Below are positions 2,671 to 44,173 of a DNA stretch of 46,500 nucleotides, piece by piece. Position 1 is the stretch's first letter, and every line of letters begins with the position of its first letter. The DNA comes from Arcticibacter svalbardensis MN12-7. Lineage in GTDB: Bacteria; Bacteroidota; Bacteroidia; Sphingobacteriales; Sphingobacteriaceae. The position numbers were made by a program, and so were the translations under genes. Location of the stretch: assembly GCF_000403135.1 (NCBI RefSeq), contig NZ_AQPN01000127.1, positions 1-46,500 on the forward strand. Direction: 5' to 3'. Below the pieces are notes generated by a model. It made no database searches. It saw nothing but the letters and a program-made list of their open reading frames with translations, and was not told where the DNA came from.

Positions 2671-3984
2671 ATGAAAAACAGTTATAGATATACTTCATCC
2701 CTGCTTATTGCAGGTTTATTATCGGTTCTCTCCTCCTGCGAGCTTGATCAGGTGAATCCGAATGCAGCTACTGATGCAGATGCGACAACTACCCGTGAAG
2801 GGATCATTGCCCTGAGTATTGGTGAACGCCAGTTTTATTCCACATCAGGATTGACCTCCAATTTGGTTTATCCTTCTGTTACTTCCCGTGAAATTAAAGG
2901 CGTTTCTACGGGCCTCACCACTATTGAGCTGGAAGCCGGCGGATCAACAATCTCCACAAACAACGCGGCTACGTTAAGCTACTGGTCTAACATGCAGCGC
3001 ATCATGCAAATGAGCGAAAGCATTATCAACAATGCCCCACAAATAACTACGCTGGAGAGCACGATGTTAAGTGGAATCATGGCACAGGCTTATCTTTTTA
3101 AAGCGATGGCGCTTGCTGAACTGGCCAGTGCTTTTGAGCAGGTGAATTTAAATACCAGCACTACGGATAAAGTAACATTTGTAGGCCGTGCTGAGGTAAT
3201 GACGGAAGTACTCCGGTTGCTTAATCAGGGCCTGAACGAGGTAAACACTACACCTCCATCAGCTACTTTTACATCTACTGTAACCGGTGCTGATTTTGAT
3301 TTAAAAAACACGCTATATGCAATGCTGGCGCGTTATAACCTAATGGCCGGTCGTTATCAGGATGCATTAACTCAAGCCAATCTGGTTGATCTGACTAAAA
3401 AATCGCAGTTTGTTTATAATACACTAACGATCAATCCGCTATACACCGTTTTTGGGGTAACTAAATCATACCGACCCCGTGCTAATTTCGGTTTAAGTGC
3501 TGATCTATTTGAAGCTGCCGATCAGCGTCTAGGATTCTATCTGACTACACCAACAGCTACTGTAAACACAGATGTGGTAGCTACTCTGTCTGGTTTTTCG
3601 GCACAAACATCCCCTATCCCCGTGTATTTAACTGACGAAATTAAGCTGATCAAAGCAGAGGCAATCTTAAGAAACAATGGTTTACTTGCTGATGCTTTAA
3701 CGCTGATTAATGAAGTAAGGACACAAACTGCTGGCGATCCATTTGGAGTAAACGCTGGGTTACCTGCATATAGTGGTGCCATTTCGAAAGATGCCCTATT
3801 ATTAGAAGTATATAAACAACGGTGTGCTGAATTGTATTTAAGCGGGTTAAAGTGGGAAGATACACGCAGATTTGGACGCCCGACTCCTCCGACAAATAAT
3901 ACAGAAAGTAACCGCGTCTTTTATCCTTATCCGGATCAGGAACGCCTGAATAATTCAAATACACCTGCTGACCCTGCTATCTAA
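2671..3984 (+). CDS. SusD/RagB-family nutrient-binding outer-membrane lipoprotein
   Basis: Surface lipoprotein expected to form the lid on the SusC-type barrel encoded just upstream. It has a lipoprotein signal peptide with lipobox LSSC and acylated Cys23, a helical TPR-like body, and the C-terminal SusD hallmark LYLSGLKWEDTRRFGRP at residues 388-404. At 437 residues it is shorter than the usual 500-600, which suggests smaller ligand-binding loops. The start is fixed by the signal peptide and by the 20-bp spacing from SusC. The ligand is unknown. There is no linked polysaccharide-degrading enzyme in view, only a serine hydrolase, so a glycan substrate should not be assumed. Confidence 0.93.
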   Translation: MKNSYRYTSSLLIAGLLSVLSSCELDQVNPNAATDADATTTREGIIALSIGERQFYSTSGLTSNLVYPSVTSREIKGVSTGLTTIELEAGGSTISTNNAATLSYWSNMQRIMQMSESIINNAPQITTLESTMLSGIMAQAYLFKAMALAELASAFEQVNLNTSTTDKVTFVGRAEVMTEVLRLLNQGLNEVNTTPPSATFTSTVTGADFDLKNTLYAMLARYNLMAGRYQDALTQANLVDLTKKSQFVYNTLTINPLYTVFGVTKSYRPRANFGLSADLFEAADQRLGFYLTTPTATVNTDVVATLSGFSAQTSPIPVYLTDEIKLIKAEAILRNNGLLADALTLINEVRTQTAGDPFGVNAGLPAYSGAISKDALLLEVYKQRCAELYLSGLKWEDTRRFGRPTPPTNNTESNRVFYPYPDQERLNNSNTPADPAI

Positions 3985-42705: not shown

Positions 42706-42713
42706 TAAATTTG
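42706..42713 (+). promoter_or_regulatory. -7 element of the metK promoter
   Basis: TAAATTTG, a perfect TAnnTTTG. It predicts transcription start at about 42718, just before the riboswitch-like leader. A -33 TTG is not evident. Confidence 0.55.
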
Positions 42714-42717
42714 CAAC

Positions 42718-42790
42718 GCTAAGTGGACTGATTTGCTTTGTTCCGAAAAGGAATGAGATTGCAACCACGTAAAAAAATCGCTAATACCTG
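42718..42790 (+). promoter_or_regulatory. SAM-II-type riboswitch (enlarged-loop form) in the metK leader
   Basis: The leader matches the SAM-II aptamer plan: stem P1 GTGG (42723-42726) / CCAC (42765-42768), CTGATTT just inside P1 on the 5' side, TTGCAA abutting P1 on the 3' side, then exactly 11 nt of A-rich sequence before GCTAA (42780-42784). In the SAM-II reference I remember, the same blocks occur in the same order and with the same 11-nt spacing. The P1 loop is about 17 nt longer than in that reference and holds a small hairpin TTCC-GAAAA-GGAA (42741-42753). It would lower metK expression when S-adenosylmethionine is plentiful. A SAM-I aptamer fits less well because there is no room for helix P3. 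Confidence 0.75.
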
Positions 42791-42830
42791 TTTATTTACT
42801 TCTTCGCGCAATCTTAGCTGCATCCTTTCC

Positions 42831-42856
42831 GTTTTAGCATTTCTTATTTCTAAAAC
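42831..42856 (+). promoter_or_regulatory. Hairpin in front of the metK start, possible expression platform
   Basis: GTTTTAG (42831-42837) / CTAAAAC (42850-42856), a 7-bp stem ending 8 nt before the ATG. It could hide the ribosome landing site. A possible alternative pairing is GCTAAG (42718-42723) with CTTAGC (42813-42818), which would enclose the whole aptamer. Confidence 0.4.
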
Positions 42857-42864
42857 TATTTAAT

Positions 42865-44118
42865 ATGCCCTATTTATTTACGTCCGAATCAGTTTCTGAA
42901 GGTCATCCTGATAAAGTGGCCGATCAGATATCTGACGCATTAATTGATAACTTTCTAGCCTGGGATGCCGAATCTAAAGTTGCCTGCGAAACATTGGTAA
43001 CAACCGGTCAGGTTATACTTGCCGGGGAAGTAAAATCAACAGTTTACCTTGACGTCCAAAAGATCACCCGTGATGTAATCCGGAAAATCGGCTATACCAA
43101 GTCTGAATATATGTTTGAAGCAAATTCATGTGGCATATTATCTGCCATCCATGAACAATCTGCCGATATCAATCAAGGAGTAGACCGACAGGAAAAACAA
43201 CAGCAAGGAGCCGGAGATCAGGGAATGATGTTTGGTTACGCCACCAGTGAGACCACTAATTACATGCCTTTAGCGCTTGATCTGGCTCATAAACTGCTGC
43301 TTGAACTCGCTGTTTTACGTCGCGAAAACAAAGATATTACCTATTTGCGTCCCGATGCAAAATCACAGGTTACCATCGAATACAGTGATGACCATGTTCC
43401 TATCCGCATTGAAGCGATTGTAATTTCCACTCAACATGATGATTTTGCTCCCGAAAAGGAAATGCAGGACAAGATCAAAGAAGATGTGATCGCTATCCTT
43501 ATTCCAAGAATAAAGGCTCAGCTTCCTGCAAATCTGCAACAACTGTTTAACGGGGAAATAAAATACCACGTTAACCCTACCGGCAAGTTTGTAATCGGTG
43601 GTCCGCATGGAGACACTGGTCTAACTGGTCGTAAGATCATTGTGGATACTTATGGTGGAAAAGGTGCCCATGGTGGTGGTGCTTTCTCAGGAAAAGATCC
43701 TTCTAAAGTTGACCGTTCAGCAGCCTATGCCACGCGTCATATTGCCAAAAACCTGGTAGCTGCAGGTGTTTGTAATGAAATTCTTGTACAGGTTTCCTAT
43801 GCTATAGGGGTTAAAGATCCAATGGGAATCTACGTAAACACCTATAATACCGCTAAAGTAAACCTGACAGATGGTGAAATTGCCGATAAAATCACTGCGC
43901 TTTTCGATATGACTCCCTATGGAATTGAAACACGCCTCAAACTTCGCAACCCGATTTATTCTGAAACTGCTGCTTATGGACACATGGGACGTGAGAATGA
44001 AATCGTAACCAAGGTTTTTGAAGGTGCCAATGGCGAAAAGAAAACGGTAGAGGTAGAACTCTTCACCTGGGAAAAATTAGATTACCAGGATCAGGTGAAA
44101 GCAGCTTTCGGCCTTTAA
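42865..44118 (+). CDS. metK: S-adenosylmethionine synthetase
   Basis: Makes S-adenosylmethionine from ATP and methionine, supplying methyl groups to enzymes such as RsmE and the FkbM protein in this window. It is 417 residues, slightly longer than the 384 of E. coli. Motifs are [15 protein letters not shown] (11-25), [12 protein letters not shown] (115-126) and the phosphate-binding P-loop [20 protein letters not shown] (264-283). The start follows a leader with a riboswitch-like structure and its own promoter; a strong terminator follows the stop, so it is monocistronic. Confidence 0.98.
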
Positions 44119-44143: not shown

Positions 44144-44173
44144 AAAAAGGGGCTGCAATTACAGCCCCTTTTT
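44144..44173 (+). terminator. Rho-independent terminator of metK
   Basis: AAAAAGGGGCTG (44144-44155) / CAGCCCCTTTTT (44162-44173), a 12-bp perfect stem with a 6-nt loop and a T tract, 25 bp after the metK stop. It ends 14 bp before the Nudix gene start. Confidence 0.93.

Follow-up and report, generated by a model that had tools for sequence, protein, structure and literature searches.

A SAM-II long-loop riboswitch upstream of metK in Arcticibacter svalbardensis, with candidate anti-aptamer strands in a C-rich leader

Introduction

Riboswitches of the SAM-II class have a documented history in Bacteroidota. They were noted in the Bacteroides group in 2005 (PMC1273637) and in Bacteroidetes in 2007 (PMC2258182), and a paper of 2010 lists 'SAM-II long loops' (RF01726) with a Bacteroidetes and marine distribution (PMC2864571). 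The main text of the 2010 paper, as far as accessible, does not describe an expression platform. Here, we analyse a window of 46,500 nucleotides from Arcticibacter svalbardensis MN12-7 (contig NZ_AQPN01000127.1), in which an element of this type stands directly upstream of metK. As far as the accessible part of PMC2864571 sets them out, SAM-II long loops share with the window element the aptamer, the phylum and the enlargement of the loop, and nothing was found in the window aptamer that distinguishes it from them. The element is of a kind already known and is not new.

The SAM-II/metA element of Alphaproteobacteria (RF00521), as presented in the accessible part of PMC1273637, has the same single stem with a pseudoknot and the same promoter a few nucleotides before P1, and it likewise lies upstream of methionine or SAM genes. 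The window differs from it in that the gene is metK, the loop may hold a hairpin and no terminator is seen. No match to RF00521 is listed for the window at E≤5, in an Rfam release in which this model may not stand apart. The metZ and metA switches of S. meliloti share with the window the SAM-II aptamer and, as class members, downregulation by SAM; a terminator is predicted for metZ, and metA hides its Shine-Dalgarno site, whereas a counterpart of either was not found in the window or in the 93 metK leaders compared here (PMC9373788, as far as accessible). The metX SAM-II switch has also been described as translational. SAM-V, which occurs in marine Alphaproteobacteria and Bacteroidetes and is described as translational, has a pseudoknot core and a SAM site very close to those of SAM-II in the part of PMC6061858 available to us; there is no SAM-V match among those listed for the window.

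Results

The element upstream of metK

A cmscan of the window against Rfam gives one above-threshold match, to RF01726 (SAM-II long loop; E 2.5e-5), which exceeds the gathering threshold of 44 bits by just 0.3 bits (Table 1). The model alignment covers the conserved core strands GATTTG and TTGCAA, the A-rich joint and GCTAA, the last of which we take to be the pseudoknot strand of the aptamer, in the role that it has in SAM-II. The named relatives of MetK are from Bacteroidota, with Sphingobacterium (81% identity) at the top of those listed. The narrow margin is no cause for doubt because 238 of the 251 sampled genomes of the family carry a matching element (E≤0.001; 188 of them above the cut-off). 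A chance resemblance, with no riboswitch at the locus, would fit so marginal a score, but is scarcely credible for an element that recurs at metK in every one of the 93 leaders and in nearly all of these family genomes. The preliminary description, which had read a long-loop SAM-II riboswitch before metK and had named a covariance-model search as the way to check it, is therefore confirmed by the RF01726 match and the adjoining metK; P1, CTGATTT, TTGCAA and GCTAA lie where it had placed them, and the spacing from CCAC to GCTAA is 11 nt, as it had reported. Quite probably, the region before metK is an RF01726-type SAM-II switch that lowers metK expression at high SAM, where SAM as the ligand and the OFF sign are attributed by analogy with characterised members of the class.

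Table 1. Features of the metK locus, in window coordinates
Feature	Position	Strand	Basis or remark
Presumed Bacteroidota-type -7 promoter element TAAATTTG	42706..42713	+	sequence; 9 nt before P1
SAM-II riboswitch aptamer, RF01726	42717..42794	+	cmscan 44.3 bits
P1 5' strand GTGG	42723..42726	+	pairs with 42765-42768
CTGATTT	42728..42734	+	read from sequence
Extra loop hairpin GTTCC 42740-42744 / GGAAT 42750-42754	42740..42754	+	-6.7 kcal/mol for insert
Core strand GATTGCAA, proposed anti-aptamer target	42757..42764	+	TTGCAA (42759-42764) in 93/93 leaders
P1 3' strand CCAC	42765..42768	+	sequence; pairs with GTGG
GCTAA	42780..42784	+	in 93/93 leaders
Post-aptamer leader with C excess over G, candidate Rho-loading stretch	42785..42844	+	C 0.267, G 0.117
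Candidate anti-aptamer strand 1 TTTATTTAC, predicted to pair with GTAAAAAAA, joint from 42769	42791..42799	+	minimum-energy fold
Candidate anti-aptamer strand 2 GCAATCTT, predicted to pair with GAGATTGC, 42755-42762	42808..42815	+	minimum-energy fold
metK, methionine adenosyltransferase (SAM synthetase), 417 aa; ATG at 42865	42865..44118	+	TIGR01034 510.8 bits, cut-off 309.4

The RF01726 match also rules out a new riboswitch class. A search of the genome gave one above-threshold RF01726 element; three more matches, at 20.7-21.5 bits, lie far under the threshold, and a second SAM-II copy was rejected. An extra GCTAA (42718-42722) stands immediately before P1, as it does in two other leaders (L028 and L033); in the window leader, its partner in the minimum-energy fold is TTTAGC (42833-42838).

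Upstream of P1 lies TAAATTTG, which we take to be a -7 element of the Bacteroidota type (consensus TAnnTTTG). Of the 93 leaders, 88 have the pattern TA..TT[TC]G in the 40 nt before P1, at a median distance of 11 nt, which agrees with the earlier proposal of a -7 element just ahead of the aptamer. From the position of this element, the RNA would start at about 42717-42720.

Distribution, covariation and the enlarged loop

The 93 leaders comprise L001 and L005-L056, mostly best-scoring matches, together with L057-L096, 40 leaders hand-picked across genera; 90 are from the family of the window and three (L007, L008 and L013) from other families, and the sub-threshold L002-L004 were excluded. In all 93, metK follows the aptamer directly and both TTGCAA and GCTAA are present. 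Beyond this set, RF01726 was matched in 35 of 60 relatives (E≤0.01), in 44 of 296 sampled genomes of the phylum (E≤1e-4) and, by cmscan, at 10 of 20 named MetK loci (20 taken from 80), among them loci of Sphingobacterium, Mucilaginibacter, Tenacibaculum, Polaribacter and Flavobacterium; it was not matched in phage records. When the 13 family genomes that lacked a first match were searched again, one had a degraded copy at metK (L097, 23.7 bits), and the remaining 12 loci showed no metK. The degraded copy (genome G268) appears as a decayed SAM-II element in which P1 and GCTAA are kept, the TTGCAA core is altered and the loop is very long. As an aptamer, the element is ordinary in this group of bacteria: the suggestion that a metK-linked SAM-II element in Bacteroidota is unusual does not hold, given its frequency in the family and the entry in Table 1 of PMC2864571.

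A 4-bp P1 can be found in all 93 leaders by a search that looked for exact complementarity to the 3' strand and so favours pairing; it reads GTGG/CCAC in 92 and GAGG/CCTC in one. In 30 further leaders, P1 is GAGG/CCTC in 26, GTGG/CCAC in three and unmatched in one. Both strands thus change between lineages, as the covariation check put forward with the preliminary description anticipated.

The extra hairpin that had been seen in the loop is also upheld. The free energy of the window insert is equalled by 3% of 200 shuffles, and inserts of 18-59 nt are present in 46 of the 93 leaders, the other 47 having 5-7 nt. Pairing is kept with different letters between leaders (GTTCC/GGAAT in the window, GCCAG/CTGGC in L059, CGCTGC/GCAGCG in L070), which answers the second covariation check, and 16 of the 46 inserts match the best 5% of their shuffles, a fair but not overwhelming count for inserts of this length. 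The hairpin in the loop is a lineage trait.

The start region and the search for a terminator

The preliminary description had suggested translational control by a hairpin just before the ATG. Such a hairpin can be drawn with 7 bp (GTTTTAG 42831-42837 / CTAAAAC 42850-42856), but 12% of shuffles of this stretch fold equally well, and over the family the post-aptamer stretch alone has no structure excess (mean z -0.07, n=93). Using removal of the aptamer from the fold as a stand-in for SAM binding, we find that the start region (-20..+15) is as open with the aptamer removed (mean openness 0.558) as in the full fold (0.557); 12 of the 93 leaders lose more than 0.05 in openness, and 13 gain. The start-codon hairpin is accordingly rejected as no better than chance, with start-region openness unchanged on average, and the suggestion built on it is not sustained. 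A SAM-II switch that acts on translation, with the start hidden by a hairpin close to the ATG or by the pseudoknot in its SAM-bound form, would agree with this drawable hairpin, with the description of metA as translational (accessible part of PMC9373788) and with the window itself, where removal of the aptamer lowers openness slightly, from 0.61 to 0.55. We nevertheless consider it unlikely, given the chance-level hairpin and the unchanged family mean. Moreover, the distance from GCTAA to the ATG is 54-170 nt in the 93 leaders (median 78), and therefore direct occlusion of the start is too distant. Bacteroidetes mRNAs, in addition, naturally lack Shine-Dalgarno sequences, according to the part of PMC6847099 available. 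An indirect effect on translation may exist.

Many SAM-II leaders of Proteobacteria carry an intrinsic terminator, but a switch of that design is a very improbable reading of this locus. Such terminators are reported as frequent for SAM-II (accessible parts of PMC1273637 and PMC2258182), yet no site was found in the window leader or in any of the 93 leaders, where 1.1 would be expected by chance. A clear intrinsic terminator, GGGGCTG-CAATTA-CAGCCCC-TTTTT, does follow metK at 44149-44173 and represents the type of signal that the leader lacks.

Strands complementary to the aptamer core

In its minimum-energy fold, the window leader has two strands downstream of the aptamer paired with it (Table 1), in predictions that contain neither the pseudoknot nor SAM; the energy of this fold alone is unremarkable (z -0.61). 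Leader strands complementary to the aptamer core are commoner than chance. Against dinucleotide shuffles, GCAATC, the reverse complement of the core GATTGC, occurs in 21 of the 93 leaders (1.6 expected), CAATC in 43 (9.3 expected) and TTTTAC, the partner strand of GTAAAA, in 40 (15.0 expected); the window leader carries TTTAC, not TTTTAC. As the leaders are related and the shuffles are uncorrected for shared ancestry, we also counted one leader per genus label, which lessens this effect in part: GCAATC is then present in 10 of 26 (0.47 expected), CAATC in 15 (2.4 expected) and TTTTAC in 11 (3.9 expected). The proposed strand is by no means universal, as 72 of the 93 leaders have no GCAATC and 50 have no CAATC.

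Pairing between the 3' half of the aptamer and the leader is predicted at a mean of 0.42, compared with 0.24 in shuffles, and exceeds that of the shuffles in 81 of the 93 leaders; for the window, the ensemble test gives 0.51 against 0.15, a value reached by none of 20 shuffles. A duplex test is not significant for the window (p = 0.195) and reaches p≤0.05 in just 27 of the 93 leaders, or 18 for the 5' half. When leaders are exchanged between aptamers, the joint strand binds its own leader with a mean of -6.54 kcal/mol and those of others with -6.04 kcal/mol, a difference in which none of 2000 permutations gave as low a value for the own leader; the own leader fits better in 20 of 26 genus labels, and the gain is slight in the window's own genus (-7.07 vs -6.97).

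Do other lineages use the same strand? We compared 30 leaders of the phylum search, two of them from the window's family, with 35 leaders of named genomes, a set that remained after one overlong leader of 36 was left out, that has four Sphingobacteriaceae-like and many flavobacterial titles and that may overlap the other sets. GCAATC is present in nine of the 35 (0.7 expected), all nine from flavobacterial genera by title and outside the window's family, and in three of the 30 (0.4 expected). CTTTAG, the complement of CTAAAG, occurs in 15 of the 30 leaders in which it was first noticed (1.6 expected), in 12 of the 35 (1.9 expected) and in one of the 93 (2.2 expected). CAAATC, the complement of the core GATTTG, is found in nine of the 35 in which it was first noticed (1.4 expected) and only weakly elsewhere (one of 30, 1.3 expected; eight of 93, 3.9 expected). 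Different lineages thus seem to aim at different core strands. Pairing with GCTAA through TTAGC was rejected as a general switch of the family, being present in eight of the 93 leaders with 9.1 expected; a long anti-GCTAA match was seen by eye in one leader (L029).

Leader composition

Between the aptamer and position -20, C exceeds G in the window leader by 0.15, a difference reached by none of 62 control leaders. The controls are intergenic stretches of this genome that precede ORFs called mechanically in the window and in 140 kb of two contigs. Taken by itself, the G content of the window leader is unremarkable (21 of the 62 controls are equally low), and four of the 62 have as many YC pairs. 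The excess extends to the relatives: C is above G in 92 of the 93 leaders with a mean difference of 0.147, compared with 0.002 in the controls, as well as in 29 of 30 and 34 of 35 leaders of the further sets, and the difference is positive in all 26 genus labels. Its mean is still 0.142 once the anti-aptamer words are removed. As a general trait of riboswitch leaders in these genomes, the C excess is ruled out by the SAM-I leaders of relatives, with a mean of 0.033 and a maximum of 0.12 (n=20 of 22 loci, two with uneven flanks being dropped), and by TPP leaders, with a mean of -0.003. The latter are a weak control, as the 12 leaders used come mostly from matches under the family cut-off, 17 of 30 loci having no aptamer end by text pattern and one no gene. 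A gene for Rho is present in the genome (657.5 bits, open frame of 608 aa). The predicted openness of the leader rises without the aptamer in 77 of the 93 leaders, an effect that is partly built into the comparison.

Discussion

How could SAM binding be passed on to metK? The folds and word counts make it fairly likely that the leader refolds into an anti-aptamer hairpin without SAM and that the SAM-bound aptamer frees the downstream strands. In the SAM-free state, these strands would pair with the 3' half of the aptamer, GAUUGC...GUAAAA with UUUUAC...GCAAUC or a lineage-specific equivalent, and metK would be made. In the SAM-bound state, the aptamer would retain its 3' half, leaving the downstream strands free and the C-rich leader open. 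If SAM lowers metK, as it does the targets of characterised class members, exposure of the leader should be harmful to expression, and this in turn argues against a role as a ribosome standby site and for Rho loading or attack by RNase.

A C excess over G marks Rho sites more than RNase sites. The C-rich strand that SAM would expose suggests Rho-type termination, and we tentatively propose that the freed leader turns metK down, most likely by admitting Rho, which would then end transcription ahead of metK or in its early part. The freed leader could instead serve as an entry site for RNase, with SAM lowering the stability of the mRNA; this follows the same logic of exposure with the same sign, and the leader is unpaired and pyrimidine-rich as such a site might be, but its C excess points to Rho more than to RNase, and we regard this route as rather improbable. 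Riboswitch control of Rho-dependent termination has been described (Hollands et al, 2012, as cited in PMC12121620). Going by that citation, the two have in common the ligand-controlled exposure of a Rho-binding stretch; theirs is a different system, and the Rho output at metK is suggested by composition and pairing.

Taken to its full extent, the proposal would be that SAM-II switches at metK in Bacteroidota have a platform unlike both described ones, with lineage-specific anti-aptamer strands and a C-rich leader exposed to Rho by SAM, a possibility that we view with some doubt. Its pairings would be GCAAUC/GAUUGC in the window's family and several flavobacterial genera, and CUUUAG/CUAAAG and, perhaps, CAAAUC/GAUUUG in other flavobacterial leaders. 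Our literature search, which covered main texts and a minority of subscription journals, found no description of an anti-aptamer or Rho platform for SAM-II. Shine-Dalgarno sites are generally missing from Bacteroidota mRNAs and the search for terminators in these leaders gave none, so both outputs described for SAM-II seem unavailable here. If the leader is indeed a Rho site gated by SAM, this would give a large group of environmental bacteria a defined, testable riboswitch output with many natural anti-aptamer variants to compare, and it would explain, for much of the phylum, how a riboswitch acts where Shine-Dalgarno sites and leader terminators are missing.

Finally, SAM-I riboswitches occur beside SAM-II in these genomes. 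On another contig of the A. svalbardensis genome (C40, 9102-9212; L176 1501-1611), a SAM-I riboswitch is followed by a short ORF, the arrangement running on to L176 1840. This ORF ends in five cysteines, as a polycysteine leader peptide, and precedes a gene of the O-acetylhomoserine sulfhydrylase type (TIGR01326). Short ORFs ending in cysteine are also present in L188 and L189, making three of 20 SAM-I loci, and SAM-I together with the polycysteine ORF is possibly a double sensor of SAM and cysteine; a literature search for 'polycysteine' together with 'SAM riboswitch' found no paper. A survey of 2007 gives, in its accessible part, no species with both SAM-I and SAM-II (PMC2258182). By hand count, SAM-I is also present in 33 of the 35 SAM-II carriers among the 60 relatives. 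In the 93 leaders, the gene that follows SAM-II is metK; the SAM-I elements examined precede other ORFs, one of which was identified by family scan. In one locus (L118, family f26), the two lie close together on the same strand, with SAM-II at 1501-1587 before metK and SAM-I at 2992-3087, about 1.4 kb further on.
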